A DNA stretch of 64,000 nt from Massariosphaeria phaeospora. Taxonomy: Eukaryota; Ascomycota; Dothideomycetes; Pleosporales. Every line of letters starts with the position of its first letter. Position 1 is the stretch's first letter. A program made the position numbers and the translations under genes. Below, piece by piece: positions 31,354 to 64,000 of the stretch. The stretch covers positions 248,001-312,000 of the forward strand of contig JAADJZ010000037.1 in the NCBI GenBank assembly GCA_011032825.1. The letters run 5' to 3'. The notes under the pieces are model-generated. The model saw only the letters and a list, made by a program, of their open reading frames with translations. It made no database searches and was not told the DNA's origin.

Positions 31354-33000
31354 ATGGACAGAGCCAGTGCTGTGCTCTCTGAGGGTCTCGACCCAGCTGA
31401 AGCTAAAACCTTGGTCGCTCTATCTAAGTCTGGCAAGATCCCCTACACTACCTTGTGGCACCGCGCACATGGGCGACCCTCGTACAGGACAAGGCGAGAG
31501 GCCAACAGTATCTTACACCCTCAGAAGAGGAAGCTCTTGTCCAGTACTTGCTGCGCATGTCTGAAAACGGCTTTCCCATCCCGGTCAAGTATCTGCGTTC
31601 ATTAGCCCATGTCATCGCATGCCAGCGCGCTTCCATCTTCCAAGCGCCTGCAGTAAGCCAAACGATCCGCCCTCCTGGCAAGAACTGGCCGCAAGCCTTC
31701 TATAAACGCCACTTTGAGCTCAAGCTAAAGCGGGTAAAGGCGTTGGGATGGAACTGTCATGATCACAACATCCACGAAAAGGTATTGCACTGGTTCAACA
31801 TTGTCGAGAGGGAACTACACAGAGCGAACATCGAGCTCGAAAACGTGTATAACATGGATGTAGCAGGCGTTATGTTGAGCATGCTTGGCTTGCTCAAGGT
31901 TCTCGTAGGTAGAGATGATCTGCACGCTTATAGAGGCGCAGGCGTCAAGCGGACAATGGTCACCGCAATCGAATGCATCTCCGCCGACGGTAGGTCCTTG
32001 CATCCACTAATCATCTGGCCAGCGGCCACTCTTCGAAGCACGTGGACGACGTACCCCGCTCTGGGGTGGCACTTTGCATGCTCGCAGTCCGGAGGCTTGT
32101 GTTTGATCCCTAGAGTAGGCTGCGGGCGGACGGGAAACCCCGGCTCCTTCTGTGCGACGGTTTCGGGACGCATGAGTCGCTTGAGATCCTCAAATTTTGC
32201 TTTGAGAACGACATTATCTTGTGCCGTATATTGTCACACACCTCACGCACGCTCCAGCCGTAGGGTGTTGGACCGTTTGGCCCTTTAAAGGCCGCATACC
32301 GTGAACAGGTTGAGAGACTGTACCGAGGTGGTGCCAATACCGGTACTGTTCGCAAGCAGCATTTCACGTCGCTCTATAGTCGTGCGCGCGAGCAGGCGCT
32401 CACCCCCCGAAACATCAAGGCTGGCTGGTCAAAGACAGGTTTGTATCCGTTTGATCCGCACCGAGTCCTTAGAAACATCCAGAAACCATTAGCTGAACTC
32501 TGCCTTCCATCCAACCATGTCACAAACGCAGATTCTGAAGTACTTCGAACACCAGTGACATCGGAGGCTCTGACCGCGCTGCACAGTCTTGTTCGTCAAG
32601 ACACTCAACAGCTGGAAAGCTCAAGCCAGAAGTCGTTCGCAGAATGTGCCCTTCTCCTTGACAAAAACCGGCTTTTGTTCGAGCAGAATAGCGAGAGAAA
32701 CTGCCGCAAGTCGGTTTGGTCTACTAAGGTTGGCAAAGCAAATGTGATGAGCTATGGTGATATTGTTGAGGCTCAGGCGAAGCGAGATGCAAAGGAAGCA
32801 GCTGTACAAGAACGGAAGAGCGGGGCGAAACGCAAATGCGGCCAGTCAAAACAAGTGCTCGCTAAAAGGATACGGAAAAGTGAGGTGGATCGAGCTCGTC
32901 GAATGCCATGCAAGTCAAGTCTATGTACAGTCCGTGAACGCCGACCCCCCAGTCCCAATTCCACCTCTCCTTGTCTCAGCTTTCCACCCAAACCCATTCC
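31354..33000 (+). pseudogene. pogo/Fot-type (DDE_1) transposase relic inside the island
   Basis: Coding sequence is spread over three plus frames. MDRASAVLSEGLDPAEAKTL starts at 31,354. The second frame (31,455 to about 32,090) carries YLTPSEEEALVQ (CENP-B-type DNA-binding region), PGKNWPQAFYKRH and VYNMDVAGVM (first catalytic Asp kept, next Glu lost). The third frame (about 32,100-32,900) carries LLLCDGFGTHES (second Asp kept) and FGPLKAAYREQVERLYRGG, and ends in a Lys/Arg-rich tail. A TAG at about 32,249 and the following change remove the third Asp region, and a short deletion lies near 32,090-32,110. The decay is by indels and scattered substitutions. The C-to-T scar of the flanks is absent. 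Confidence 0.88.
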
Positions 33001-44299: not shown

Positions 44300-45539
44300 G
44301 TCAGAAGGCAGGAGTTGGAGAAGTACTGAGGTCGAGTCGTGGGACGGGGCATGGTGTCTGTTTTACATGCTGGAGGTCGCGTCGAGCTGGCACTGCGGCG
44401 CAGCGTTTGAAGTGGCGCGCATCTGCCGCCCTGCAGCTGCAAGTATGCCTGGTTGGCGGTTTGAGTAGTGGAGGAGAGTGGGCGACGCGGCACGGCTCGT
44501 GTGGAGGACGAGCGGGGATCTGTCGCTTCTCACTCGCCGCTGCCATGCTAGCCGAGCCGTCGGTATACTCACTGAAATGTTTTCAGCGACCCGCTGATGT
44601 CATTGGAGGTTTCTACTAATAGAGCAAGTTGCGTCGCTGATGTAGTCCTGATCGTTGATGCAGGAAAGTTTGCGCTGGTGCATCGAGCTCCTTGTCCACG
44701 GCCCAAGGTACCAGGCTGAACAGGGTTAGCGCATGTTGCCAAGACGAGGACAGCCGCTAAACTCTGGTCCAGCCTTGGCGTCAAGAGATCATTGTGTCTA
44801 TCGTTCTTTCTATGAGTACTTTTGTCGATTTGAGGCGGCTTATGGCCTTCAGGATGGTCTGCTTCTCAGGAATCTACTAACTGGATGCTATAGTGGTGAC
44901 CGGTAGCGGTTTCGGGTTCCTAGCGCACAGCCACTTCAACGCACGCTTGCCAAAGTAGTCTTAGCGCTTCACAGGCCTCACATGTGGCTAAGAACGTGGC
45001 AGTGTGTTCAAACTAAAGTTTAGTATAATACCACCGCGACCCTCACCAGCGGCCTTTCCGATCCGGGGTCACGACCTTATGATAAGTTCTTCGCGTCACT
45101 AGGTCGCCTAGTTAGAAACGGCGCCGACGTGGTTTTGAATACAGCCCTCTAGAAGTCAATGTTTTCAGATTGCTAGAGCTCATTCCCGGACACAGTCTGT
45201 GCGCCGATATTGATTAGAGGCTAGGGATCTACTATCTAGACTCGGCATCGCTATACGAAGCTCTATTATATACGTAGAGCAATAAAGAGAGTGCATGCTA
45301 GATACTACTAGATAGTTTACTCTTTTACATCTAACTAAACTTTCGAGATGCATTACGTCGTCTGCGGCAACCTCGACGTACACGAGTTATTTAGATCGAT
45401 GCAATATGCATCGACTAAACTAGCGCAAACGAGAAAAGCGTTTAAGTGCTTCTAATAGGAAAACTATATGCTGTAAAAACGAGTGCGATATTTTCAGGCT
45501 ACGGTAAGGTTAAACTTATCTACGAAACAGAACTCGCGA
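44300..45539. other. Island edge, no credible gene
   Basis: GC content falls from balanced to AT-rich at about 45,180-45,540. Overlapping frames at 44,287-44,784 are on both strands with biased composition and no domain. The minus frame at 45,180-45,383 has no recognisable content. Confidence 0.45.
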
Positions 45540-45541
45540 TA

Positions 45542-45965
45542 ACGTACTTTACGAGTTCGCTGCCTACACGAGTTCGCCGCCCACCGAATTTTACTAAGAA
45601 AAATCAATAATCTAGAGCTTAATAACTCTTCACCTACTTAATAAAATTCTCTAAAAATTCAATATATTATTTCTGTATATATAAACTTTCTAGTTCTAAG
45701 ATTACTAAGCTTTAGCTAGTCTAGAAGAGTAGATAGCTTAGAGCGCACGAACAATTTAAGCTTTTCTTTAATAACTTTCTAAATACTAAAGTTGTAGCTT
45801 AGTAATCTAGGAATCTAAAAGTTTATATAGATGCAGCTTAGTAGTAAAAAATTTAGAGAATTTTATTAAGTAAGTTAAGAGTTATTAAGCTCTAGATTAT
45901 TAATTTTCTTTAGTAAAATTTAGTAGGCGGCGAACTTATGTAAGCAGCGAACTCGTAAAGTACGT
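45542..45965. mobile_element. Fold-back MITE 1 with TA target site (424 bp)
   Basis: Long terminal inverted repeats: ACGTACTTTACGAGTTCGC at the left end pairs with its reverse complement at the right end, and pairing continues for about 115 bp and then patchily to the centre. TA flanks both ends (45,540-45,541 and 45,966-45,967), as in Tc1/mariner-type insertion. There is no coding capacity. The ends are related to those of the element at 52,572-53,481. Confidence 0.85.
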
Positions 45966-46019
45966 TATAAAATAAAACTCTAGTATAGAATTTGTCGTTA
46001 ATAAATGCGCATGCGTAGT

Positions 46020-46720
46020 TTACAAGCTTGCTAACGCTAAGCGTAAGCACATTAGCTTTTCTAATATCTTGTAGCTACTAGTTTTAAGCCGATTACTATT
46101 TGCTATACAAGTATTGTGTTTTCGTTTTTTTTATTTTTTATTAGTACAATGTTGCTTCTTTAGCTACTTAATTAGCTTTGCGAGTAGTTAGTAGCTACTA
46201 ACTACTTTTTTCTTTGTATACTTATTAAAGTGCTTTAACTACTATAGTTTAAGTTTATTTATTGTTTAGCTTTTCTTAGAAACTGCAATAATCTAGTTCT
46301 AAAGCAAATACTTTTTTTTATACTAAGCAAAGAAGTAGTATTAGCTTTTGAAAATAATAAAAAGTAGAATAGCTTACTTTGTTGCGTTAAAGCTTTGGAT
46401 AACTATTGTTTACTTTCTAATACTTTGCTGTATTGCCTTTAGTTATTTTTATTTCTCTAAAGCTATAACAACTGCTTTAGTTAATATCTAGCTTATTATA
46501 AAGCTTTTTTGTTAAAGTTGTACGTATTTACATTTTAGATATCGTACTTAGCTTTTATATTAGCTACTAGGCGAAACTAGCTCTAAATAACTACGAGATT
46601 TTTGCAAAGCGCTTTTTTGTAATTGTACTTGCGATTAAACTTTATTGTAAACTCAAAGTAGTGCATAACTTACGTACTAGACTAGTTTAAGCTAACCTAG
46701 CTTAAATTGCGCTTTGCGCG
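46020..46720 (-). pseudogene. pogo-type transposase fragment, same subfamily as 19,820-21,480
   Basis: The minus frame shows the DDE start YNFNKKALIIS (near 46,525-46,560), KAVVIA, the following block with SFNATK, and LKHFNKYTKK near 46,200-46,225. These are in the order seen in the relic at 20,330-20,640. The block with the second Asp is missing and the tail follows directly, so this is an internally deleted copy. TAG/TAA stops are throughout. Confidence 0.6.
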
Positions 46721-47640
46721 TAAGAAATTAACTATATTAGCTACAGCTACGAGTTTAAAAAGAAATTCGCGCGATATAAGCTTAAGTATATACTTAACAA
46801 CTACGCTTTCTTTAGTTTTTATTAGATTTATTAATTTAAGCTTATAATTTGCTTGTAAAAGTTGTTTAGCGCGTTAATAGCTTAGTATTGTTTAAAAGAT
46901 GTTATAGATAGTTGCAGCGCGTTGCAAGAAAAGTATTGCATTTTTGTTTAAAAGCTTAAAAAGTAGTTTGTATCTAACGTTTATTAGAAAGTTTTATTTA
47001 GTATTATTGTTAAAGCATCGTGTATATAGGTAGAGTTAGTAGAAGCTTAGCAAAAGTATTTTGCAAACTTATATAGCTTAACTATTCTAAAGCGCTAATA
47101 GTACTTAGCTCTAAGTAGAGTTTTTCTAGAAACTAGATATACGCGTAGCTTTTGGTATATCTCGTTACGCTTTTTTTGCGTAGAGTACTCTTTAAAGTAT
47201 TAGTAGCGTAAAGTTCTTAACGTTAAATTAAGCTGTAATTTAGACTAGTTACTTAGTGCGCTGCTTTGCACTATTGCTAGAATTTACATTAAAATCGTGC
47301 ACGTAGTTGTAGTACTTAGAGTTAGAATTACGTAGCTTAGTAAAGCAACGTAGTAAAAAGAAATGCAAGTATAATGTTACGCAACTGTAATACAAACAAC
47401 AAACGCAGTTTGCGTAAGCAGCGCGTTTGTACTACAAAAGCAAAAAATAAATAAATTTGTAGCAAGTAGATAATATACGTAGTATTTATACAACTTGCAA
47501 CTTGCACTTGCACTTGTACTTGCACCAACGCTATAGCAAAGATAAACGTTAAGCTATAGCATTTTAAGCATTTTGCAGCGTACTCTATAGCTATTTGCAA
47601 AAAGTACAAACATAGCGTACTACTTAGTTATGTTAAAAGT
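46721..47640. other. AT-rich mutated DNA
   Basis: May include the N-terminal part of the pogo fragment to its left and the 5' flank of the helicase relic to its right. An open minus stretch (47,337-47,609) has a Val-Gln repeat from a GTGCAA-like simple repeat near 47,500-47,525. No domain was recognised. Confidence 0.4.
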
Positions 47641-47699
47641 TACCTACAACGCAAGCACAAAGTTAAGTAAAAGCAAGCTAAAAATATAGCAAAGCAAGT

Positions 47700-50600
47700 G
47701 CGCAGCTAGCTAAAGCTAACAGAATACGCTAGCGAGATTTAGGTGCCTAGCTAGGTTGTCGCGCTAATTAGCTAGTTGCTAGTTTATTTAAACGGTTTAT
47801 TATGCTAGCTAAACGCAGCTTGTTGTAGCAAAGTGCTGCAAAGCATTAAAGTAATAAAGAATTATTAGAAAAACGTGTATACCTAGTTAGCTGCAAGCAA
47901 AAGCAGCTGCTTTAGCTAGGTAGCGTAGAAAGAAATCTAGCTGCGCGTTAACAAAAGCTGCTAACGCGTACACAGCTAGTAGCTACTTGTTTAAAGCTTA
48001 AAATCGCAGTACTTCGAAGTGCAGCTGCTTAACGACGACAACTTAGAAATAGTACCTATTAACGGCGAAACAGCGTAAGCGCGCGTAAGCAAAGCAATAG
48101 CTAAAGCGTAAAAAAAAGTAAAGAAGCAAGCAATTAGCACTATTTAAGTAAGCAAGCGCAACGAAGTTAACTCGTAGGTAAATTAAACGCAGTAGCTGCT
48201 GTACTTAGTAGGCATAAAGCAAGCGAATCTGCTTGCGTGTAACAAAAAGCTAGTAGCTAAGCTAGATCTAAAAAGCAACAACGAAGCTAAGCTAGTAAAA
48301 GTAGCAATCTAAGCAGCTATAAACGAGCTTATGCGCTTTAGCTAAGCGTTAGTAATTAAGCGCGTTAGCGTGTTCGTGCAGCTAAAAGCAATTTGTACTA
48401 AAAAGCACTAAACGCGGTACTAGCTGCTGCAGCTATACATAAACAAAAAAGCAATTGTTAAGCACACGCAGCTATAGTAGCAAGTGTTAATGTTTTTTGC
48501 GCGCACATAAAAAAAGCACGCATAAAAGAGCTCGTAGTACTAGTTTAAGCAGCAGCAGCGCAAGACATAAAAAACGTTAGTTTACAAAGCAAAAAAAGCA
48601 GCAGAAAAAAAAGTAGAAGAAAGAAAAAACAAAGCAAACAAGCAAATAGACAAGAAAGCAAATAATAAGCTAAAAACAAACAAAGAAATAGAAGTTAACG
48701 AAACAAATTAAGCAACAAAAGCAGCACTCGATTAGAGCGCTGCGAGCGCTAAGCTAAAGAAGTTATCTAAAATTTAAAAAGCGTGTTTAGATTTTTGCAT
48801 CGCGTTGCTAGACTACTGCATTACTTGCTAAAAGTACAATAGCTCGTTAGTATACGCGCTAGCAGTGCTAGGCGTTAAGAAAAAAAGCTAGAAAAAGCTA
48901 AAATAGTATTCGCTAATTTTGTTAGCTGTAATTAAGACAGCACGGTTTATAGTAGTATAGTAGAAGCTAGAGCTATTAGGTGCAAATCTAGCAGATTCGT
49001 AGAATAGTAACAAAGAAATAAACAATTTTAACAACAGCGCGTACGAAAGCGGTTTTAGCGCTAGCTTACGCTGCTGCTTAAAAAGTTGTTTGCAGCTTGT
49101 ATAGCAAATAATAAACTAGTTTATAGTGCGCAGCAGCTACGGGCTAATATAGTAAATGCTAAACCTACAAACGTATAAGCTAAAGATTTATTACAACACT
49201 ACAGCGCGTAGGCACGTAAAGTAAACTAGCAATAAGCTGCTATACAAGAAGCTGCACTTTAGCATAGCCTAGTTTTGCAGCATAGTTTACGAGCTAGCAA
49301 GCGAAAGCTAGTAGCTATTAACGAAAAAGCTATTGTTTAGCAAGGCTACGCTTGTACCTGCTGTGCTATAAAAAAGCATGCGCAATAACTTAACCAACGA
49401 GCAGCTAGAATAGAACTTTTTAAAAAACTAGCGCACACAAATGCTCGTTGACAGCAAGTAGTAGCTATTTAAGTAAGTAAAGCAAAAAGCTAGCATTCGT
49501 AGCTAGTTTATAAAGCTTAGAAGCTAGTTAGAAGTAAACTAGCAAGCAGTAGAGTAGTACATAAATCAAGTAGTTAAGTTCTACAAAAAGCTAGCAGTAT
49601 TAATGCATATTAGTAGTAGGTAGCTAGCGCAAAAGCTAAAAATATTAAGCGTGCAGCATAGCAACACGGTGCAAAGCAGCTATTGCAACGTATTTATTAA
49701 AAACAGCATAGTAGTGTTTGTAACGCGGTACTACAAAAGCTACAACGTTAGTAGCAACGTTAAAATTATCTACTAGTATTTGCTACGTAAAGTAAGCGAG
49801 CTAGTAGTGTAGTATATGTAACTAGTGCTGCCGTTCTAGCAGCAACTTAAAGCGTTAGTGTAGAAAAAAAAAGCAGTGTTGTTTTACATGTAGCTAGCTA
49901 ATTTTAGTAGCTGCAAGTAAATAACAAATTAACTTTGCAAAGCGTTAAAGCGCGAAAGCTAAATTGCTATAAGCTAAAAATAAACGTTTGCTAGGTACCG
50001 CAAGATAGCAATTAGCATTAGCTAGCGATATTTGCGTAAATCTACCGCGTTCTAAGCTAAGAAAAAAGAAAAGAAAAAGAAAAATAAAAATATAGCAAAA
50101 GCGTTTATTGCTAACGAGCAAGCGAGCTATACGTTGCACGTTGCTAGGCTAGTATACGCGCAAGAAATTATAAAGCAAGCTAGCGCTATAGCTAACAAGC
50201 AGCAGCAATTCTAAGCATCTAGCACTAATTAGCATTAATTTTTAGGCTTTTAGCTAGACGTTAACTAGAGCGAAAAAAGTAGAAAGCAAAAGCAAGCGCC
50301 GTTTGAAAGCAAAGTAAACGAAGCAAGAATTAATTAATAGCAGTAGCTAAAGAAAATAGACAGCAGCAAGCAGCTTAAGCGAATAATAAACAACGAAGCT
50401 AAGTTTCGTAGCGTGTAGAAAGAAGCTATTAACGCTATTATAGCAAGCAAAAGCTTTGTTGTAGCCGTAATGCCTATTAGCAAAAGCAAAAGCTTGTTAT
50501 TTATGTTGCTAGCGTTTGCAAAGCAAAGCAGCACTACTATTGTTGTTGTACTGTTAATCGCGTTACGCAGCGATATAAAGCAGCGATGCTAGAAGCTAAA

Positions 50601-52200
50601 AATATTGTGTGTAGAGTAAAAGAGCTGCTACTTACTTAACGCTACTATCGTAGTGTTAGTAACGCCTAAGTTAGCAGTAAAAAAAGCGTTTACTACGTTT
50701 TTAAACTAGCTTTAAGCAACGCAGCAGCTAGATTGAATTGTTATTAACGAGTACTATATTGTGTTAAACTAGTAGTACACGTTTTGCAAGTAGATGCAGT
50801 AGCTTAGCAAGCTAGTAGCTGCAAAAACGCAAATAGTTATGTTAACAGCTACGTTGCTGCTAAGCGAAAAAAGCAAGCTATTCTACTACATGCATTTTAA
50901 TCTAGAGTAGGTTAAAATGTTTAAAGCGTTTACAGCGCGAACTAACGTAGCGTATTACGTAGTTAAAATAAGCTAAAAAGCGCAGAAGCAAAAAGTAAAA
51001 GCAACTGTGTTAGCTATAGTATAGCAGAAACTAAAAAAGTACAAAACTAGCAAGATTATTATATACAGCAACTTAGTAGCTAAAGTTAAAGCGTTAGCAA
51101 AAAAGCTTAGATGCTAGGCGTATTACTACTACGTAGTTAGTAAAGCAAGCATGTTAAAAAAGTTTATAGCTAGCTAATAGCGCATTATTGTTGCTACTAG
51201 CGCATTAGGCATAGGCGTTAACGTGCTTGACATTTAGTACATTGTTTACATTAACTAGCTGTTTAGCGTGTTAGAGTACGCGTAAAAGAGTAGTAAAGCT
51301 AAGCAAAACAAACTACTAAGCAAAGCAATTACGATTGTACAAAAAAGTAATTAACAAGTAGCTACTAACGCGCAAAGTAAAGCAAAGCAAGCGTTAGTAC
51401 AATTGTACGTAAAAAAAAGCAGCAGCGTACAGTGCCAAAAAGTAGTGTTAAACAAATATCTAAACTAGCGAGAAACAAAGCAAGTAGAATGCAAAGAAAA
51501 AAAAAAAAAGTGTAACGTTTGTCAAAAAAAGAAAGCAAAAAAGCGAATAAATAAAAGTAGAAAAAAAATAGCGAGAATTCTAGCGAGGTTAAAGAGATAG
51601 AAGCGAAAAAAAGCGTAGGCAAAAGCAAAAGAGAAAACGAAAAAAAAAAAAAGCAAAGAACGTTTGAGCAGCAGCAGCGAAAGCAACAAAGCTTATACTA
51701 AACGTTAATTTAACAGCAATAGCATAAGTTTAAAAACGTTAAGTAGCTGCGCAAGTAGTTAGCGTAGCAAGCGAGTTAGTACGAGATATGCAAAGTAGTA
51801 GGTAATAAGCATAGCAACTACGACTTGCAGCAATGTTAGCAAGCAAAAAGCACGCAAGTTAACAAAAGTATTAAAGCAATAGAAAAAAAAATTAAGTTTG
51901 AGAATTATTTTAAGTGTTTTTGGTGCAAAGTGCCGCAGAAAATATGCTATTAGTAAAAAAGCAACAGCCGCAAAAAGTACAAGCGCAACAAAAAAAGCAA
52001 TTGCTAGTACAAAAGCGTGTTAATAGGTAGCTTAATAGGCATAGCGTTAGAGTATTGCGAGATTAAGTTGCAGTAGCATGCGCAATTAAAAGCAATAAGC
52101 GTTAACAGCGTAAAACTAAAAAAAAGCGTTGTTAAGTATCTAAAAAAAAAGCGCGCACTTAAGACAGTAGAAAGCAATTAGTTAGTAAAGAAGTTCTATT
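47700..52200 (+). pseudogene. RecQ-like, telomere-linked-type helicase relic (about 4.5 kb)
   Basis: The plus frame can be followed over most of 4.5 kb. The N-terminal region (about 48,000-48,560; YFEVQLLNDDN, YLVGIKQANLLAC) resembles the DUF3505-type part of such proteins. The middle part (about 49,600-49,900) carries FVTRYYKSYNVSSNVKII. The helicase core follows: VMPISKSKSLLFML at 50,470-50,511 (Walker A, Gly lost), INEYYIVLN near 50,735-50,765 (a DECH box with Asp and Cys-His altered), MLTATL near 50,832, RIIVATSALGIGVNV near 51,181-51,225, and a motif VI remnant near 51,280-51,300. A Cys-containing C-terminal part follows (about 51,900-52,080). In fungi such RecQ-like genes are typical of chromosome ends. 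It is inactivated by C-to-T/G-to-A changes. Confidence 0.85.
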
Positions 52201-52308
52201 AGGTAACGCAGTTGTTAGCTAAGTAAGTAAAGCAATCTAGCGCACTGCAAGCATAGTAAGCGTAGTAATAAACAAGTAACGCTTGTATTTTACAAAGAAA
52301 AAAACGCT

Positions 52309-54338
52309 TAGCACTAGAAGCTAAAGAGCTTACTTTAGCGAGTATAGAAAATCTAACAAAAGCAACAACAACGTTAAAAAGCGCAAGCAGTGTTATATTA
52401 CGTTACAAAACCTTAAACAGTTAGCACTACTAGAACATTTTTAAATAAGCTAAAGCAGTTGCTATTTATTATCTAACGTATTTTCTTTTATAAGTAAGAT
52501 TCAACGAAAGCGACAACGGCGTTAAAAAGCGCAAGTAGTATTCTTTTACGTTACAAAACTTTAAACAGTTAACGTACCTCACGGGTAGTCGGGCCACACG
52601 GGTTCGCGGAACACTTTTGCCAAGCAAATTATCTAATATTATAACTTTAATACCTTTCTTAATAGTAGGCCTATTAGAATAATTTATACACTGTTTTAAA
52701 GCTCTAAGCTAGGACTTTAAAATCTACTAAAAATTACCTAAATAGGCTAAGTACTACTAGAGTTTTTAAAGTTTAAAGATAAAGAGCTCGCTTAAGCTCT
52801 ATACCTAGTATCTAGTAGAATTCTACTATAATAAACTTTTATATTCTAAAATATTCTTATTTATACTATATATTAAAGTACTAGAGAGTTTTATAGCGTG
52901 TAGCCTAAGATTAAAGCTACTAGATAGGTTAGAAAGTAGTTTACTTTCTTTATACTAGCTAAGTATAAATATCTATATATAACTATTAAAACCTAATGTA
53001 AAACTACTTAATAATTTAGTACTTAGTATAATTATACTATATAAGCTTTAAAAAAGTAGTATTATTTAGAGTTATAATAGTACTAATACTTTATACTTAG
53101 TAGGTTTTATATATAAACTCTAATTCTATCTAATAGCTTTGATTCTAAGCTATATACTATATAACTTTCTAGAACTCTAACTTACAGTATAAATAAGAAT
53201 ATTTTAGAATATAAAAGTTTATTATAGTAGAATTCTACTAGATACTAGGTATAGAGCTTAAGCGAGCTCTTTATCTTTAAACTTTAAAAACTCTAGTAGT
53301 ACTTAGCCTATTTAGGTAATTTTTAGTAGATTTTAAAGTCCTAGCTTAGAGCTTTATAACAGTGTATAAATTATTCTAATAGGCCTACTATTAAGAAAGG
53401 TATTAAGGTTATAATATTAGATAATTTGCTTGGCAAAAGTGTCCCGCGAACCCGTGTAGCCCGACTACTCGTGAGGTACGTTAGCACTACCAAAACAGCT
53501 TTAAACAAGCTAAATTAGTTTGCTATTAATTATTTAACGTAGGTTTTTCTATAAGTAAAATCTAATAAATCTAACAACAGCGTTAGAAAGCGCGAGTAGT
53601 GTTCTTTTACGTTACTAAACTTTAAGTAGTTAGCACTACTAAAACAGCTTCAAACAAGCTAAAGCAGTTGCTATTAATTATCTAACGTAGGTTCTTTTAT
53701 AAGTAAAATCTAATAAATCTAACAACAGCGTTAGAAAGCGTAGGTAGTGTTATATTACGTTACAAAACCTTAGGCAGTTAGCACTACTAAAACATCTTTA
53801 AACAAGCTAAAGCAGTTGCTATTTATTATCTAACGTATTTTCTTTTATAAGCGAGATCTAACAAAAGCAACAACAGCGTTAAAAAGCGTAGGTAGTATTC
53901 TCTTACGTTACAAAACTTTAAATAGTTAGCACTACTAAAACAGCTTTAAATAAGCTTAATTAGTTTGCTATTAATTATCTAACGTAGGTTCTTTTATAAG
54001 TAAGATTTAATAAATTTAACAACAGCGTTGAAAAGCGCAGGTAGTATTCTTTTACGTTACTAAACTTTAAGCAGTTAGCACTACCAAAACAGCTTCAAAC
54101 AAGCTAAATTAGTTTGCTATTAATTATCTAACGTAGGTTTTTCTATAAGTAAAATCTAATAAATCTAACAACAGCGTTAGAAAGCGCGAGTAGTGTTCTT
54201 TTACGTTACTAAACTTTAAGTAGTTAGCACTATCAAAACAGCTTCAAATAAGCTAAAGCAGTTGCTATTAATTATCTAACGTAGGTTCTTTTATAAGCGA
54301 GATCTAACGAAAGCAACAACAACGTTAGAAAGCGCAAG
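52309..54338 (+). repeat. 148-149-bp tandem array (about 7 units), interrupted
   Basis: TTAGCAC marks the phase at 52,309 (partial unit), 52,421, 52,569 (interrupted), 53,630, 53,778, 53,926, 54,075 and 54,224, so spacing is 148 or 149 bp. Each unit contains CAGTTGCTATTAATTATCTA-like and CTTTTACGTTAC-like blocks. A fold-back element sits exactly in one unit at the TA of GTTAGC. Units differ mainly by transitions. The array begins right after the helicase relic and ends at the first telomere-like tract. No conserved frame was recognised. Confidence 0.88.
52572..53481. mobile_element. Fold-back element 2 with TA target site (910 bp)
   Basis: Nearly the whole element is an inverted repeat about an axis near 53,026. 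The left end ACGTACCTCACGGGTAGTCG pairs with the right end CGACTACTCGTGAGGTACGT; 300 bp or more of each arm match closely and the inner parts match with more differences. It is flanked by TA at 52,570-52,571 and 53,482-53,483. It has kept more CC/GG than its surroundings, suggesting later arrival or weaker mutation. Its first 40 bp align with fold-back MITE 1. Confidence 0.9.
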
Positions 54339-54386
54339 AGTTTAAAGTTAGAGTTAAAAGTTAGAAGTTAGAGTTAGAGTTAGAGT
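54339..54386 (+). repeat. Degenerate telomere-like hexamer tract
   Basis: TTAGAG, TTAAAG and spaced variants at the junction between the 148-bp array and the first large repeat unit. Confidence 0.75.
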
Positions 54387-57300
54387 TAAATGTAAAGTAA
54401 AATAATTTAATTGAATTTTGGTTTTTCTGCAAAGAAGAGTCGAAATGCTTTAGTTTGCAAGGCACTTTTCGTTTCTTGTTGTATCTACAAAAAGAAACTT
54501 ATTAAAAATAAAAAAAAAGCAGTTTATATACATTAAAGTTGAAGGAAAGTTCTTTTAAGTTGTTTACTTATTGCGCTGTTAAAAGCTTAAGCTTTTAGCT
54601 GCTGCCTAGCTTTTGCAAAAGCTAAGTGCAAGTAAAAAAGCTAAAACAATGCAAAACGTTGTGCTGTAAAACGAGCAGCTCTAAAAGTCTATTAGTAATA
54701 AGTAAGTATTAAAATTAGTTAGAGTTAAAGTTAGAGTTAGCGCCTTAGCGCTAGACTTATACTCAATTCTTTTGTTTTTAGAAACCGCGATAGTTAACCT
54801 AGATTAAAACAATACTTTTATATTACTATTAGACTTTTCCTACAAGCTAGCAGCTTTTTTTTGAAACAAGTTGTTTTTACGCGTAGTTGTTCGCTGCGCG
54901 AGTGTTTTTCTAGATTTTCAAGCGTTCGCGCCGTTGCTAGCGTTTTTATTTATTTATCTAAGTACTACACAAGCGCAGTAGTTGTTTTGCTACTTTTTAA
55001 AGTTTTTAAATTGCAAAGGCAACACTGCTTTGCGACGCTTTTTTCTTAAAAAAAGTATAACGCTTAAAAAAGCATGCAAAGTAGTAAAACTAGCAAAAGC
55101 AGCAATAGGTCTTACAAGTTTTACATTTTAAACTTAACTTAGCTTCTGCGACGCTTTTTCTCGAAAAAAAGCACATGTAGAAAAAGAGAAAAAAAATAAA
55201 AATGCTATGCGCTAAAGCTGCAACTGCTTGTCACTACAGCTTAGAGCAAAAAGTAGAATAATCTAGTATCTAAAGAAAACACATGTACCGACAACTTTTT
55301 AATGTTAGTTTTTTCAATTTTTTTATTAAAAATGCTTTGATTTACTGCTCGAACTAGATTCTACATGAATTTAGTTCGTTTTTTAGCAACGATACAATGC
55401 AGTAGGTATAGTAGATTTAAAAGTTTAGCTTAAATCTATTTCAATCGCATGTCGTTTTAGATAGCGAAGAAAGAAACTTAGTTTTATACAAGGTTATATT
55501 TAGAGACAGCAATAATTGCATTACGCGCAACTTTTGTTTTTAGCTTAAAACTTAGAAAGTACAATTGCTATTAAACCTGCTGTTTTTAAAAGTGTAACAC
55601 TTGTTTTAGCTAACTGCGCGCTTAAAGCTTTAACATAAATATTGCTTTTTATGTTAAAAAGTATATTTTTTTGTAGCATATTGCGCAGATCTAGCAGAGC
55701 TTGCTTTTAACTAGTTTTTTTTTAACTAAAAAAAAGTAAAGGCTTGCTTATAAAAGGTATTAATAGTAGTTAAGTACTTTGTTAAAGAGCGCAAAACATA
55801 CTGCTGCTAACTTAAAGTGCGTATAAAAGCGTACGTTGAAAAACGTTTGTTTGTAAGCAAAGTGCGTTTACAAAATTTGCAAGCTTAAAACGCAAATAGC
55901 TTTAAAAGCCTCGTTAAATAAGTTAAAAACAAGAATATTATTAACATACTAGCAATAAAACTAAAGCGTATGTTAATAAAAGTATAACTATTTGTAATAA
56001 GCTATAAAGAAATTTGCAAAGACAAAAGCGCAATGTAACTCTATTAAAACCTCGTTAACTTAGCAAACTAGTTTAGACTTAATCTAGAATAGCGCTTCGT
56101 GCTAAATAAAATTAAAAGCTTTAAAAATCTAGTTTTTAGTTTGCTTATTATACTAGTTTTTATTTTTAAAAATAAACTAAAGAGCATGCACGAAATTTTT
56201 TTAACAAATGTATGTATACATGCTTGCAACGTTGCTAGTATGCAATTGCACAAAAGTTGTGTTGCTACTATTAAAAACTACAACTTTTAAACACAAATTC
56301 TAGCTGCTTTTGCATATCTATAAAAAAAAGCGTTAAACTAGTAGTAGCATAGCGTGTAGTATTCTGCCTAAAAGTTTTAACACATAGAAATGCATTAGTA
56401 CAATAAGCCTAATTTTTTATAAGCTTTTGTAAATCTTGAAAATGCTATAAAAAATTAGAATGTTTTTATTTGCATAAGCTAAACGCTAAAAACGTAGTAC
56501 TTGCTTTGTGTTTAAATGCAAGTAGTATAAGCTATTTTAACGCACGCAAAAAAGTTGTTGCTTAAAGTATTAAACAGTACTTTAATAAAAGTTAACAAAC
56601 TTTGCTTGTTTTTAGTGCTAAATTTAAATTTGTAGTATGTAAAAAAAAGCATTTACTTGTGTCTTATACTACTTACAAGTAACAACTAAAACTTTAAAGT
56701 TTTTGTTAGTAATTAGTGCTAGAAGCTAAGCTTTTAATAGCTAATCTCGTAGGTTTTTTAAAAGAACTACGACTTAAAAAAAAGCGTTGTTTCTAAAGTT
56801 AGATTAAAGTATAGGTCGCTTGTAAAGCGCACGGCGCAAGGCTTTCCTTTTAACTCAAATACTATTTGCAAACTATTCGTTGTTAATGCTTGTATTCTAG
56901 CTAGTTAATAGATACAAAATAAATTTTTGCTAGCTAAGCAGTACGTTTGTACCGTTGCTTTAAAAATGCGTTATAAAACGACACTTCTAACTTAGTTATT
57001 TAAACTAGTCTAGCGCTACTTGTTAAAAAAGCAGCTTAAAAAATAAAAACTTTAGATTTACGCTAAGCGTATACTTAATGTTTATAAAAAGTTTAACACT
57101 ATTAAGCTTGTGTACACTTAAGCGCTAGTTTATTAGCGTTTCAAACTAGTGCGCAAGCTAGGTGCGCTAGATGTACATTATTTAAAATAAAAAGTTCTAA
57201 AGTTAAAAGAACTTTAGAAGCAGCGCGCTGTTTGCATGTAGCAATAGTGCATTTAGCGCTTTTTCTACTGCTTTTTAAAAGAAGTGCTGCGTTTTGTGTT

Positions 57301-58194
57301 GCTTTTTTAGCAGCGCTTTAACACTTTAGCAGTGTTTTTCGTCTAGTTTTTAGTCTTCGAGAAACTAGCTTTTCTTTGACTTTTTCTTAATTTCGGCTTA
57401 GTGCGTTTGTTCTACGTGGATTAGCGCTAACGTTTGCTAATTTCTTTAATAAACTTAGCTAAAGCTTTCTTGTTGCTAGGCAAAGCGCTAGTTGCTTTAA
57501 CCTAAGCTTTCTTCTACGTTGCTAATTGTTTTTTCTTAGTTTTAATTTGTTGGTATGCAGCGTTGGCTTTAATTGAAATAGTTGTTTTAACTAAGAATTC
57601 TTCGCACGGTTAGCTTATTAGAATCGTATAAGCTTCAAAGCTAATGTGTTCGTTACTTAATGCTAATTTTTAACTAGTAAAAAAAGCTTTAGTCTAGGCA
57701 TCTAGATCGCACAATTGCTTAAGAATTTTAATTTTAGCTTTTTTAATTTTAATTATGCGTTCTAGCGCACCTCTCTTTGATGCCTTAAGAGCTAAAAAAA
57801 AGTTTTTGAAATCGAGTTGCCTATGTTTGATAGCTAGTCTCGAAACTTGAACAAAGAAAGCTCAAAGAGATTTTAGCTTAAAAAGCTTGTTAAAAGTTAA
57901 CTTTGCAAGAAAGTTCTTTTATTTTTTTAAAACAATAGTAGCGTTGGCTATTTTGAAGTGCGCTTAAACAACTTGTTTAAGTAGTGTCTTCGTTCGTTTC
58001 TAAACAAAAGCAAGAACAAGCGCTACAAGTTGCGCAGTAAATTTAGCGTTAACAATTCGTTTAACGAAACTGCTAATAAGCTTATTAGCTATTTTTAAGT
58101 TAAATTCAGCTAGCTAGGTGTTAACTAAAGAAGAAGCAGCTTTTATTCTAAAGAATTTGTTTATTTGCACATTCTAAGTCGAACAGCTAAAGTA
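54387..58194 (-). repeat. Large tandem unit A (about 3.8 kb)
   Basis: Direct repeat of 58,261-62,073 along its full length. It starts with a TGTAAAGTAAAATAATTTAA-like block after the hexamers, has a short internal hexamer tract at about 54,719-54,740 followed by a GCGCC/GGCGC-type hairpin, and ends at GCAGCTTTT...AACAGCTAAAG where a new hexamer array starts. Small open stretches in it (54,861-55,049; 56,068-56,290) recur in the other units at the same offset. See unit B for the coding potential. Confidence 0.9.
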
Positions 58195-58260
58195 AAAGAG
58201 TTAGAGTTAGAGTTAGAGTTAGAGTTAGAGTTAGAGTTAGAGTTAGAGTTAGAGTTAGAG
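58195..58260 (+). repeat. Telomere-like array, 10 perfect TTAGAG hexamers
   Basis: Ten TTAGAG units at 58,201-58,260, preceded by a partial unit. It lies exactly between large units A and B. Confidence 0.95.
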
Positions 58261-61200
58261 TTGTGTATAAAGTAAAGTAATTTAATTGAATTTAGTTTTT
58301 CTGCAAAGAAGAGTTGTCGAAATGCTTTAGTTCGCAAAACACCTTTCGTTTCTTGTTGTATCTACAAAAAGAAACTTATTAGAAATAAAAAAAAAGCTGT
58401 TTTATATACATTAGAATCGAGAGGAAGTTCTTTTAAGTTGTTTACTTGCTGCGCTGTTAAAAGCTTAGGCTTCTAGCTGCTGCCTAGCCTTTGCAGAAGC
58501 TAAGTGCGAGTAGAGAAGCTAAAACAATGCAAAACGTTGTGCTGTAGAACAAGCAGCTCTAAAAGTCTATTAGTAATTAGTAAGTACTAAAGTTACTTAG
58601 AGTTCGAGTTAGAGTTAGCGCCTTGGCGCTAGGCCTTTACTCAAATCTTCTATTTCTAGAAACCGCAATAGTTAACCTAAATTGAAACAATACTTTTATA
58701 TTACTAACAGACTTTTTCTACAAGCTAGCAGCTTTCTTTTAAAACAAGTTGTTTTTACGCGTAGTTGTTTGCTGCGCGAGTGTTTTCTTAGATTTTCAAG
58801 CGTCCGCGCCGTTGCTAGCACTTTTATTTGTCTATTTAAGTACTCTACAAGCGCAGCAGTTGTTTCGCCGTTTTTTAGAGTTTTTAAATCGCAAAGGCAA
58901 CGCTACTTCGCAACGCTCTCTCTCTAGAGAGAGTATTATACCTAAAAAAACATGCGAAGCAGTGAAACTAGCAAAAGCAGCAACAGGTTTTACAAGTTTT
59001 ACATTTTAAACCTAACTTAACTTTTGCGACGCACTTTTCTTAAGAAAAGCGCATGCAGAGAAGAAAAAAGAAATAAAAATACTATGCGCTAAAGCTGCAA
59101 CTACTTGTCACTACAGCTTAGAGCAAAGAGTAGAATAATCTAGTATCTAGAAAAGACACATTTACTAACAGCTTTTTAATGTTAGTTTTTTCAATTTCTT
59201 TGTAAAGAATGCTTTGATTTACCGCTCAAACGAGATTCTACATGAATCTAGTTTGTTTTTTAGCAACGATACACTGCGGTAGGTATAGTAAGTCTAAGAG
59301 TTTAGCTCAAACTTATTTCAATCGCATGTCGTTCTAGATAGCGGAGAAAGAAACTTGGTTTTATACAAGGTTGTATTTAGAAACAGCAATAATTGCATTA
59401 CGCGCAACTCTAGTTTCTAGCCTAAAACTTAGAAAGTACGATTGCTATTAAACCTGCTGTTTTTAAAAGTGCAACACTTGTTTTAGCTAGCTACGCGCTT
59501 AGAGCTTCAACATAAATGTTGCTTTTTATGTTAAAAAGTATATTTCTTTGTAGCATATTGCGCAGATTCGGCAAAGCTCGCTTTTAATCAACTTTTCTTT
59601 AACTAAAAAAAAGTAAAGGCTTGCTTATAGAAAGTATTGATAGTAGTTAAGCGCTTTGTTAAAGAGTGCAAAATACACCGCTGCTAACTTAAAGTGCGTA
59701 TAAAAGCGTACGTTGAAAAACGTTTGTTTGTAAGCAAAGTGCGTTTATAGAATTTGTAGTTCTAAAACGCAAATAGCTTCAAAAGCCTTGTTAAATAGGT
59801 TAAGAACGAGAATATTATTAATATACTAGCGATAAAACCGAAGCGTATGTTGATAAAAGTATAGCTATTTGTAATAGGCTATAAAGAAATTTGCGAAGAC
59901 AAAAGCGCAATGTAACTTTATTAGAACCTCGTTAACTTAGCAAACTAATTTAGACTCAATCTAAAATAGCGCTTCGTGCTAAATAAAATTAGAAGCTTTG
60001 AGAATCTAGTTTCTAGTCTGCTTACTATACTAGTTTTTGTTTTTAAGAATAAACTAAAAGGCATGCACGAAATTTCTTTAGTAGATGTTTGTATACATGC
60101 TTGCAACGTTGCTAGTATGCAATCGCACAAAAGTTGTGTTGCTACTATAAAAAATTGCAACTTTTAAGCACAGATTCTAGCTGCTCTCGCATATCTACGA
60201 GAAAAAGCGTTAAACTAGTAGTAGCATAGCGTGTAGTATTCTGCCTAGAAGTTTTAACACATAAAAGTGCATTAGTACAATAAGCCTAATTTTCTATAAA
60301 CTTTTGTAGATCTTAGAGATGCTATAGAGAATCGAGATTGCTTTATTTGCATAAGCTAAACGCTAAAAACGTAATACTCGCTTTGTGTTTAAATGCGAGT
60401 AGTATAAGCCGTTTTAACGCACGCAAAGAAGTTGTTGCTTAAAGTGTTAAACAGCACTTTAATAAAAGTTAACAAACTCTACTTGTTTTTAGTGCTAAAT
60501 TTAAATTTGTAGTATGTAAAAAAAAGCATTTACTTGTGTTTCGTACTACTTACGAGTAACAACTAAAACTCTAAAGTTTTTGTTAGTAATTAGTGCTAGA
60601 AGCTAAGCTCTTAATAGCTAATCTCGCAGGTTTTTTGAAAGAACTACGACTTAAAAGAGAGCGTTGTTCTTAAAGTTAAGTTGAAGTATAAGTTGCTCGC
60701 AAAGCGCACGGCGCAAGGCTTTCCTTTTAACTCAAATGCTATTTGCAAACTATTCGTTGTTAATGCCTGTGTCCTAGCTAGTAGATAGATACGAAATAAA
60801 TTTCTTCTAGCTAAGTAGTACGTTTGTACCGTTGCTTTAAAAATGCGTTATAAGACGACACTTTTAACTTAGTTATTTAAACTAGTTTAGTGCTACTTGT
60901 TAAAAAAGCAGCTTAAAGAACAAGAACTTTAGATTTACGCTAAGCGTGTACTTAATGTTTATAGAAAGTTTAATACTATTAAGCTTGTGTACACCTAGGC
61001 GCTAGTTTATAAGCGTTTTAAACTAGTGCGCAAGCCAAGTGCGCTAGATGTACATTATTTAAAATAAAAAGTTTTAAAGTTAAAAGAACTCTAGAGGCAG
61101 CGCGTCGTTTGCATGTAGCAATAGTGCATTTAGCACTTTTTCTACTACTTTTTAAAAAAAGCGCTGCGTTTTTTGTTGCTTTTTTAGCAGCGCTTCGACA

Positions 61201-62127
61201 CTTTAGCAGTGTTTTTCGTCTAGTTTTTAGTCTTCAAGAAACTAGCTTTTTTTTAACCTTTTCTCGATTTCGGCTTAGTGCGTTTATTCTGCACAGATTA
61301 ACGCTAACGTTTGCTAATCTTTTTAACAAACTTAGCTAAAGCTTTCTTGTCGCTAGGCAAAGCGCTAGTTGCTTTAACCTAAGCTTTTTTCTGCGTTGCT
61401 AATTCTTTTTTCTTAGTTTCAATTTGTTAGTAGGCAGCGTTGGCTTCAATTGAGATAGTTGTTTTAACTAAGAATTCTTCGCACGGTTAGCTTATTAGGA
61501 TCGTATAAGCTTCGAAGCTAATGTGTTCGTTACCTAATGCTAATTTCTAACTAGTAAAAAAAGCCTTGGTCTAAGCGTCTAGATCGCACAATTGTTTAAG
61601 AATTTTGATTTTAGCTTTTTTAATCTCAATTATGCGTTCTAGCGCTTCTTTCTTTAATGCTTTAAAAGCTAAAAAGAAGTTTTTAGAATCGAGTTGCTTA
61701 TGTTCGGTAGCTAGTCTCGAAACTTAAACAAAAAGAGCTTAAAAGAATTTTAGCTTAAGAAGTTTGTTAAAGGTTAACTTTGCAAAGGAATTTTCTTATT
61801 TATTCAAGACAACAGTAGCGTTGGCTATTTTAAAGTGCGCTTAAACGACTTGTTTAAGTAGTGTCTTCGTTCGTTTCTAAATAAAAGCGAGAACAAGCGC
61901 TACGAGTTGCGCAGTAGATTTAGCGTTAACAATTTGTTTGACAAAACTGCCGATAAGCTTATTAGCTGTTTTTAGATTGAATTCGGCTAGCTAGGTGTTA
62001 ACTAAAGAAGAAGCAGCTTTTATTCTAGAAAATTCGTCTATTTGCACATTCTAAGTTAAACAGCTAGAGTAGAACTAAGGTCGTAATGTTTGTAACATAG
62101 TAAAGTACTAAAAGAATCGAAATAGAT
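58261..62127 (-). repeat. Large tandem unit B (about 3.87 kb)
   Basis: Complete unit. On the minus strand a frame can be followed from about 62,040 to about 61,100. It is Lys- and Ala-rich, with helical stretches such as EALERIIEIKKAKIKILKQL near 61,595-61,655. Another runs from about 61,120 to 59,945 and shows FELKGKPCAVRFASN near 60,695-60,745. Both are interrupted only by TAG/TAA. That alone proves little, because TGA is itself removed by the mutation pattern. No reverse transcriptase, helicase or transposase motif was recognised, so the element class is open. It has 55 bp more at its right end than unit A. Confidence 0.85.
58617..58630. other. Perfect short hairpin after the internal hexamer tract
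   Basis: AGCGCC-TT-GGCGCT, a 6-bp stem with a 2-nt loop. It directly follows TTAGAG-TTCGAG-TTAGAG-TTAG (58,597-58,618). It is present with one change in units A (about 54,738) and D (about 63,145). Confidence 0.7.
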
Positions 62128-62473
62128 AGAGTTAGAGTTGTGTGTAAAGTAAAGTAATTTAATTAGATTTAGTCTTTCTGCAAAGAAAAGTTGTTGAAAT
62201 GCTTTAGTTCGCAAAACACCTTTTGTTTCTTGTTGTATCTACAAAAAGAAACTTATTAGAAATAAAAGAAAAGCTGTTTTATATACATTGAAATCGAGGG
62301 GAAGTTCTTTTAAGTTGTTTACTTGCTGCGCTGTTAAAAGCTTAAGCTTCTAGCTGCTGCTTAGCTTTTGCAAGAGCTAAGTGCAAGTAGAAAAGCTAAA
62401 ACAATGCAAAACGTTGTGCTGTAAAACGAGCAGCTCTAAAAGTCTGTTAGTAATTAGTAGGTACTAGAGTTAC
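62128..62473 (-). repeat. Truncated large unit C (about 0.34 kb)
   Basis: Matches the first about 335 bp of the other units (from the GTGTGTAAAGTAAAGTAATT block to AGTTACTTAGAG). It then stops exactly at the position of the internal hexamer tract, where a long telomere-like array takes over. The left boundary is a very short hexamer tract (ATAGAGTTAGAG). Confidence 0.88.
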
Positions 62474-62587
62474 TTAGAGTTCGAGTTAGAGTTAGAGTTC
62501 GAGTTAGAGTTCGAGTTAGAGTTAGAGTTAGAGTTAGAGTTAAAGTTAGAGTTAGAGTTAAAGTTAGAGTTAGAGTTAGAGTTAGAG
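62474..62587 (+). repeat. Telomere-like array, 19 hexamers with variants
   Basis: Nineteen consecutive hexamers by my count: 14 TTAGAG, 3 TTCGAG, 2 TTAAAG. It is followed by about 75 bp of non-repeat sequence to 62,664. The 137-residue Asn-Ser / Leu-Thr repeat frame over this region is only the translation of the arrays. Confidence 0.93.
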
Positions 62588-62664
62588 TTATAAGTAATAG
62601 GTAGAACGCAAAAGAAAAGTTTGAAGTTAAAACTTTAGAAAAAACTAATGAGTACAAGAGTTCT

Positions 62665-62790
62665 TTAGGGTTAGAGTTAGAGTTAGAGTTAGAGTTAGAG
62701 TTAGAGTTAGAGTTAGAGTTAGAGTTAGAGTTAGAGTTAGAGTTAGAGTTAGAGTTAGAGTTAGAGTTAGAGTTAGAGTTAAAGTTAGAG
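62665..62790 (+). repeat. Telomere-like array with one intact TTAGGG
   Basis: TTAGGG at 62,665-62,670, then 20 hexamers to 62,790, of which one is TTAAAG and the rest TTAGAG. It directly precedes unit D. Confidence 0.95.
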
Positions 62791-64000
62791 TTGTATGTAA
62801 AGTAAAATAATTCGATTGAATTTAATCTTTCTGCAAAGAAGAGTCGTCGAAATGCCTTAGTTCGCAAGATACCTTTCGTTTCTTGTTGTATCTACAAAAA
62901 GAAACTTATTAGAAATAAAAAAAAAGCTGTTTATATACATTGGAATTAGAAGAAAGTTTTTTCAAGTTGTTTACTTGCTGCGCTGCTAGAAGTTTAGGCT
63001 TCTAGCTACTGCCTAGCCTTTGCAAAGGCTAAGTACGAGTAGAGAAGCTAAGACAATGCAAAACGTTGTGCTGTAGAACAAGCAGCTCTAAAAGTCTGTT
63101 AGTAATTAGTAGGTACTAGAGTTACTTAGAGTTCGAGTTAGAGTTAGCGTCTTGGCGCTAAGCTTTTACTCAAATTTTCTGTTTCCAAAAACCGCAATGG
63201 TTGACCTAGATCGAAACAATACTTTTATATTACTAACAGACTTTTCCTACAAGCTAGCAGCTTTTTTTTGAAACAAGTTGTTTTTACGCGTAGTTGTCCG
63301 TTGCGCGAGTGTTTCTCTAGATTTTCAAGCGTCCGCGCCGTTGCTAGCACTTTTATTTGTCTATCCAAGTACTTTACAAGCGCAGCAGTTGTTTTGCTGT
63401 TTTTTAAAGTTTTTGAATTGCAAAGGCGACGCTACTCCGCGACGCCCTCCCCTTAGGGGAAGTATTATACTCGAAAAAGCATGCGAAGCAGTGAAACTAG
63501 CAAGAGCAGCGACAGGTTTTACAAGTTTTACATTTTAAACCTAACTTAACTTTCGCAACGCACTTTCCCCAAAGAAAGCGCATGCAAAGGAGAAAAAAGA
63601 AACGAGAATGCTATGCGCTAAAGCTGCAACCTAGATAACTAAACAGGCTTAGAGCGAAAAGTAGAATAATCTAGTATTCAAGGAAAACACATTTACCAAC
63701 AGCTTCTTAATGTTAGTTTCTTCGATTTCTTTGTAAAGAATGCTTTGATTTACCGCTCGAACGAGATTCTACATGAATCTAGTTCGTTTTTTGGCAACGA
63801 TACACTGCGGTAAGTACGGTAGGTCTAAGAGTCTAGCTTAAACTTATTTCAATCGCATGTTGTTCTAGATAGCGGAGGAAGAAACCTAGTCCTACACAAG
63901 GTTATATTTAGAAACGGCAATAATTGCATTACGTGCAACCCTAGTTTCTAGCTTAAAACTAAAAAAGTACAATTGCTATTGAACTTGTCGTTCTTAGAAG
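62791..64000 (-). repeat. Large tandem unit D (cut by window edge)
   Basis: The first about 1.2 kb of the repeat unit, in the same orientation as A to C, with the internal hexamer tract near 63,119-63,148. Two small plus-strand open stretches (63,268-63,456 and 63,278-63,538) recur in units A and B and are probably antisense to the unit's own frame. Confidence 0.9.

Follow-up and report, generated by a model that had tools for sequence, protein, structure and literature searches.

Telomeric Penelope-like elements (PLEs) have been published for rotifers, for a basidiomycete, and for the ascomycete Mycosphaerella graminicola (available portions of PMC4522978 and PMC3846280). The family of M. 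graminicola (Zymoseptoria tritici), described by its authors as a putative PLE, has 34 full and 49 truncated copies, and the full ones are on 26 of 41 chromosome ends (accessible text of PMC4522978). We analyzed a stretch of 64,000 nucleotides of Massariosphaeria phaeospora (order Pleosporales), referred to here as the window (positions 248001-312000 of contig C31, which is 317458 bp long; the genome has 42.08 Mb in 51 contigs). Its right part contains four repeated units, A to D, accompanied by arrays of the hexamer TTAGAG, and these units are very probably copies of an endonuclease-deficient PLE that adds itself to chromosome ends. Telomere-attached endonuclease-deficient PLEs are a kind of element already known, for instance in M. 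graminicola. According to the sections of PMC4522978 that are available, the 2 families share a Dothideomycete host, a reverse transcriptase (RT) without endonuclease, a location at chromosome ends, a TTAGGG-bearing 3' end directed away from the telomere, and numerous copies with mutations and 5' truncation.

All 58 RT matches in the genome, in pieces on 16 contigs, are located no more than 30 kb from a contig end; one of them belongs to a second, distant family on C2. Contig ends counted at 30 kb each represent by arithmetic at most 7.3% of the genome. The matches are on the minus strand at right ends and on the plus strand at left ends (C2, C29, C46, and C50), always pointing away from the end. 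This agrees with the proposal of the initial annotation, made from the letters of the window, that the element is limited to chromosome ends; neither copies at mainly internal positions nor hexamers unrelated to the telomere were found. Perfect TTAGGG arrays of at least 60 bp terminate 11 contigs (C3, C5, C8, C11, C12, C13, C18, C21, C24, C31, and C51), and in 9 of them the element is near the telomere-bearing end. On C32, an array of this kind is situated 4.2 kb short of the contig end. Long TTAGGG arrays are found 73 times on the plus strand and never on the minus strand genome-wide, and no left contig end bears a telomere; the left ends of C2, C29, C46, and C50 carry units despite this. The strand bias is probably a habit of the assembly.

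The G-rich strand points to the right on C31, and the contig terminates on that side. C31 runs 5458 bp past the window edge. Going outward, this part contains the remainder of unit D, 12 arrayed hexamers of which 10 are TTAGGG, a fifth element copy, and 21 terminal TTAGGG hexamers. The window is thus subtelomeric with the chromosome end to its right, and its hexamers derive from the TTAGGG telomere of the species, both as initially annotated. The TTAGAG arrays are mutated TTAGGG, i.e., old buried telomeres. Exact sites of 4 consecutive TTAGAG occur 145 times in the genome and the reversed pattern does not occur; used as DNA query, unit A gave at least 26 matches on at least 14 other contigs (15 of 19 candidates scored). 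The window contains the following features:

53480..54336, plus strand: subtelomeric satellite of about 5.8 copies with a period of 148 bp, located immediately inside the innermost array
54342..54385, plus strand: innermost and most decayed telomere array, 7 hexamers, adjoining the satellite
54390..58189, minus strand: unit A, truncated on the 5' side at reference position 3823, mutated at 43% of C/G sites
54709..54736, plus strand: decayed internal telomere-like motif of unit A
55244..57244, minus strand: decayed RT frame of unit A, 58.6% identity over 667 aa with stops read through
57505..58137, minus strand: decayed open reading frame 1 (ORF1) of unit A
58201..58260, plus strand: buried telomere array, 10 TTAGAG
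58263..62139, minus strand: unit B, full length, 37% of C/G sites mutated
58597..58614, plus strand: decayed internal telomere-like motif of unit B
59121..61121, minus strand: decayed RT frame of unit B, 63.7% identity over 667 aa with stops read through
61382..62041, minus strand: decayed ORF1 of unit B
62126..62139, plus strand: two-hexamer bridge ATAGAGTTAGAGTT linking B to C without an array
62140..62495, minus strand: unit C, limited to the unit's first 355 nt, with the internal telomere-like motif at its end; proposed pseudo-long terminal repeat (pLTR) of insertion B
62474..62587, plus strand: buried telomere array, 19 hexamers (14 TTAGAG, 3 TTCGAG, and 2 TTAAAG)
62665..62790, plus strand: buried telomere array, 21 hexamers (19 TTAGAG)
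62793..64000, minus strand: unit D, 5'-truncated, extending beyond the window as far as 65961, mutated at 30% of C/G sites
63126..63143, plus strand: internal telomere-like motif of unit D

The 4 units have a single orientation, as had been noticed before. Their description as units separated by arrays holds for A/B and C/D but not for B and C, which are joined by 2 hexamers only. About 77 bp of unrelated sequence (62588-62664) lie between 2 of the hexamer arrays. The 148-bp satellite also matches near the ends of C21, C29, C13, C11, C3, and C18, with a 94-bp piece on C35, and on C31, C13, and C18 it stops 3 to 54 bp short of the innermost array, on the inner side. Because the satellite adjoins the array on these 3 contigs, the innermost array looks like the original chromosome end, which in the window it probably is.

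To describe the anatomy of the copies we used the C32 copy (3896 nt) as reference and considered whole or partial copies that align over 40 columns or more on 14 contigs; these counts leave out the copies on C29, C50, and C11:766-775 kb. The proximal start is at reference positions 1-3 in 45 of 46 aligned copies or pieces, the remaining one (on C46) starting at position 48. Fifteen units are full-length, and each of them continues into the start of another copy across a two-hexamer bridge (decayed in most of the 15, and lacking one base on C2); telomere repeats directly following a full-length unit were found in none of the 15. The copy that follows ends at position 355 in 6 of the 15 cases (C11 three times, C18, C2, and C31), twice at 409 (adjacent copies on C18), and otherwise at approximately 20, 38, 40, 532, and 2973; one following copy is full (C24) and one is cut at 333 by the contig end (C32). 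Distal ends capped by telomere-type repeats number 26 and occur at many different reference positions. This count omits the ends cut by a contig end (C2, C26, C27, C32, and C46), and C21 and a 61-nt piece on C46, where other sequence follows; since BLAST extends through hexamers, the true break is possibly 10-15 nt earlier, as on C18. Seven of the 26 (three on C11, and one each on C18, C2, C31, and C46) are at reference positions 337-361, the site of GGTTCGGGTTAGGGTTAG, where approximately 0.17 ends are expected by chance (P = 2e-10 for 7 of 25, computed before the C24 end was added, a value weakened because recombination has given some ends a common descent). The ends at the internal motif, which is situated about 350 nt away from the 3' end of the element, and the direct tandem junctions suggest pLTRs that seed a new telomere. 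A 3' end adjoining telomere repeats and 5' truncations capped by telomere repeats are both observed.

The unit's protein, which could not initially be matched to a known class, is an RT best read as Penelope-like. One little-mutated copy holds a 667-aa RT frame without stops. The structure model of this protein is nearest to telomerase, the twelve best rows of the VIA list being telomerases (families missing from that list are not thereby excluded), and its sequence shows distant homology to RT/GIY-YIG proteins (110 homologues listed). A domain scan of four frames from the least mutated copies detected RVT_1 only: GIY-YIG gave no match in these frames up to E 1, and no restriction-like endonuclease domain was called in them. 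GIY-YIG is also absent from the precomputed domains of the 110 RT homologues, and it gave a single match in the whole genome, on C4. Because no GIY-YIG was found, the element is not filed as a canonical Penelope. Its placement among the PLEs rests on the homology to RT/GIY-YIG proteins, the telomerase-like fold, and the anatomy; the position of its RT on the Penelope/telomerase branch is supported, not proved.

No domain was found in ORF1, which has 4 homologues, including one from the host itself (BDV95DRAFT_609127, 99% identity over 37% of the query). The ORF1 and RT frames are in a -1 relation with a GGGAAAA heptamer in phase within their overlap, a possible frameshift site that we regard as a lead only. 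Some PLEs carry a hammerhead ribozyme; neither this nor any other Rfam RNA was found up to E 1 in 3 loci (L009, L029, and L031), a search that divergent forms could escape. Beside the main family, a second and distant Penelope-like RT family is present at the C2 end between 2 arrays (L011:2081-3853, C2:12081-13853), with 29% identity to the main family and 33% to the nearest protein found (P0095), so that 2 Penelope-like families share the chromosome-end niche there. By hand count, 94 of the 110 listed RT homologues are on contigs of 3-4.7 kb, which is roughly the length of one unit and would fit assemblies broken at the flanking telomere arrays.

These features can be accommodated in the following cycle. 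The 3' sequence of the element RNA, complementary to TTAGGG, would pair with the G-rich 3' overhang, which would prime reverse transcription so that the cDNA lengthens the chromosome. The resulting copy would have the 3' end of the element innermost and its sense strand directed away from the chromosome end. An early stop of synthesis would give 5'-truncated copies, and synthesis of the whole element would read through into a further, usually partial copy, the putative pLTR. Telomerase would then add TTAGGG, to which the next element would attach, and old telomeres would in this way become buried between insertions. Finally, a host C-to-T mutator requiring a 5' pyrimidine would decay the repeats and turn CCCTAA into CTCTAA (TTAGAG). 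A telomerase gene is present in the genome, and the host therefore does not have to rely on the element. We tentatively extend this cycle, in a form that we rate as somewhat doubtful, to an RNA that is telomere-complementary at both ends: its 3' end would prime, and the 5' end of its pLTR of approximately 355 nt would give a cDNA ending in GGTTCGGGTTAGGGTTAG, a seed for telomerase. The element would then be a self-capping, telomere-lengthening element working beside telomerase, leaving a layered record of old telomeres and held down by a mutator that reads YpC (C preceded by a pyrimidine) instead of following the published CpA rule.

Several observations weigh against reading the units as endonuclease-deficient PLE copies that grow at chromosome ends. 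The telomere-bearing ends of C3 and C5 (2 of the 11) gave no element match. The Pfam scan also failed to call GIY-YIG in the frog protein P0110, so a profile scan can miss this domain. The RT matches in Pfam and NCBIfam are weak and some are to bacterial RTs, those in NCBIfam being far under the cut-off; likewise, the profile search of the PDB returned bacterial RTs (group II intron, DRT, retron-type, and DGR) and not telomerase, which is reached only by fold. None of the database homologues of the RT and ORF1 is labelled Penelope. Some blocks surely changed place through recombination between ends, since adjacent C18 copies share a 409-nt end. These C18 copies are also similarly decayed and the 148-bp satellite is common to several chromosome ends, as would be expected if the arrays had spread mainly by Y'-like recombination, with few true insertions and the RT as a passenger. 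We consider this unlikely: the proximal junction is constant and the 26 array-capped distal ends are scattered, a pattern that 3'-primed synthesis would produce, and neighbouring copies differ in array length and decay.

A stronger competitor concerns the pLTR. The 15 full-unit junctions could be jumps of the RT to the 3' end of a second RNA template, and the ends near position 350 could be telomerase healing at an internal motif of longer copies. The following copy ends elsewhere than at 355 in 9 of the 15 cases, and healing at a telomere-like seed is plausible; set against this, none of the 15 full-length units is directly capped by telomere repeats, as a first RNA copied without a jump would give, and the same motif is the end of 6 of the 15 following copies. 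Template jumping is a serious contender, with a little less than an even chance of being right. Known telomere-linked units between telomere tracts include the MoTeRs of Magnaporthe and the yeast Y' elements. It is very improbable that the units represent a non-LTR retrotransposon of MoTeR type with telomere repeats as its target, given an RT fold nearest to telomerase and the kinship with RT/GIY-YIG proteins (MoTeR features were compared by description). A Y'/RecQ helicase was rejected because the four frames scanned gave no helicase match, which makes the parallel with Y' drawn initially a poor one. Nearly all hexamers in the window read TTAGAG, as a microsatellite unrelated to the telomere might; on C31, the arrays turn to TTAGGG further out (10 of 12 hexamers, then 21 of 21), TTAGGG arrays are found at contig ends, and the change is the one predicted from the mutation context. 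We reject this explanation as having next to no likelihood. The reading as PLE copies attached to chromosome ends is retained.

The C-to-T decay noticed initially accounts for nearly all changes in decayed copies and is evident in unit B, with 745 C>T/G>A changes versus 40 reverse transitions and 48 transversions. Its context was analyzed by pooling copies longer than 800 nt with more than 15% of C/G mutated. The mutated fraction was 0.66 for CpC and 0.57 for TpC, and only 0.05 for ApC and 0.035 for GpC. Triplet rates were 0.84 (CCA), 0.82 (TCA), 0.09 (ACA), 0.06 (GCA), and 0.54-0.65 (CCC, CCG, TCC, and TCG). The decay departs from the usual CpA rule: the 5' base decides, a 3' A is favoured only within YpC, and CpA after a purine is nearly immune. 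In the 2 youngest clearly directional copies (outermost on C31, and C8), 101 of 1926 YpC sites and 2 of 1816 RpC sites (C preceded by a purine) were mutated. The young C18 and C26 copies, excluded from this sum for having as many reverse changes, lean the same way (93/1049 versus 21/975, and 38/463 versus 6/410). Within CCCTAA, the middle C is part of CCC and the first C follows A, so that mutation is expected to yield CTCTAA (TTAGAG); TTAAAG shows that the third C is a less frequent target.

Outside the units, in window positions 1-29000, the observed/expected ratio of C is 0.23 after C, 0.47 after T, and 2.9 after G; the start of C4 (L023) is similar, and the GC-rich island is near 1 (0.82-1.19). 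AT-rich DNA without units (window 1-29000 and 45500-54300, and L023) is likewise depleted in YpC and retains GpC, and the mutator thus seems to act genome-wide (the pooled low-GC context figure includes loci with units and is not independent). Classic indices of repeat-induced point mutation (RIP) still call the AT-rich part of the window RIP-like (2.12 and 0.63; thresholds from the available part of PMC7296669), and the decay is therefore most readily taken as a RIP-like process with a further 5' requirement rather than a wholly separate one. Possible candidates for a RID-type DNA methyltransferase are 4 PF00145 matches at 3 places (C1, C23, and C50). A frame at window positions 31455-32288, in the GC-rich island, matches a Tc5-type DNA-binding domain (22.4 bits against a cut-off of 22.2) and, below threshold, DDE_1; it is a transposase remnant or a gene.

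Decay falls outward along C31 (mutated fractions 0.43, 0.37, 0.36, 0.30, and 0.03, the outermost copy having 2.7%) and C26 (0.28, 0.27, and 0.05), with exceptions on C11, C18, C2, C46, C24, and C8. Over nine contigs, 57 of 81 within-contig pairs follow this order and none of 20000 shuffles reached the score, which is inflated by treating each partial copy from a single insertion as a point of its own. On C11, the outermost 355-nt repeat (796714-797066, L012/L013) has 0.11 of C/G mutated compared with 0.32 in the full unit to which it is joined, which would reflect recent replacement or protection beside the telomere.

As far as the literature was searched, 3 features are new: long mutated telomere arrays between insertions, the presence in an endonuclease-deficient PLE of a terminal repeat of approximately 355 nt that ends with a telomere-like motif, and decay that depends on a 5' pyrimidine. 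The available portions of PMC4352252, PMC4014442, PMC6963459, PMC7296669, PMC13207899, and PMC4858203 give CpA, CpG and, in Microbotryum, TpCpG as RIP contexts, and YpC was not found in them, which is weak evidence of novelty as subscription papers were mostly outside the search. Because each insertion seals the existing telomere, the arrays form an ordered series of old telomeres of which length and damage can be read, in an ascomycete where telomerase and a telomerase-like element share chromosome ends. If the element does seed the next telomere, it offers a simple model for a retroelement becoming, or replacing, telomerase. If the 5'-pyrimidine context holds in related fungi, the mutator is unlike the Neurospora picture and tallies of 3' dinucleotides alone miss its main determinant.

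Compared with the known systems, the RT described here is of the Penelope/telomerase type by fold and kinship and comes without a helicase match, which sets the units apart from MoTeR and Y'. The directional C-to-T decay of repeats is shared with RIP, but here the 5' base decides. A body flanked by direct repeats a few hundred bp long is shared with canonical Penelope and its pLTRs (218 bp in Pen2a); canonical Penelope encodes GIY-YIG and in some cases makes target-site duplications, neither of which is seen here (PMC3846280, accessible part). Compared by description, the M. graminicola element is 3.4-3.5 kb long with one to three 3' hexamers, whereas the M. phaeospora element is 3.9 kb long with arrays of 7 to 21 between insertions and, unlike the former, has an internal telomere-like motif and joins tandem copies by a two-hexamer bridge (available sections of PMC4522978). 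With Athena of bdelloid rotifers and other endonuclease-deficient PLEs, it shares the lack of GIY-YIG, the confinement to chromosome ends, the proposed priming on exposed 3' ends, and telomere repeats on the truncated 5' end (as far as the text of PMC3846280 is available); the terminal repeat of approximately 355 nt with a telomere-like motif proposed here may set it apart from Athena.

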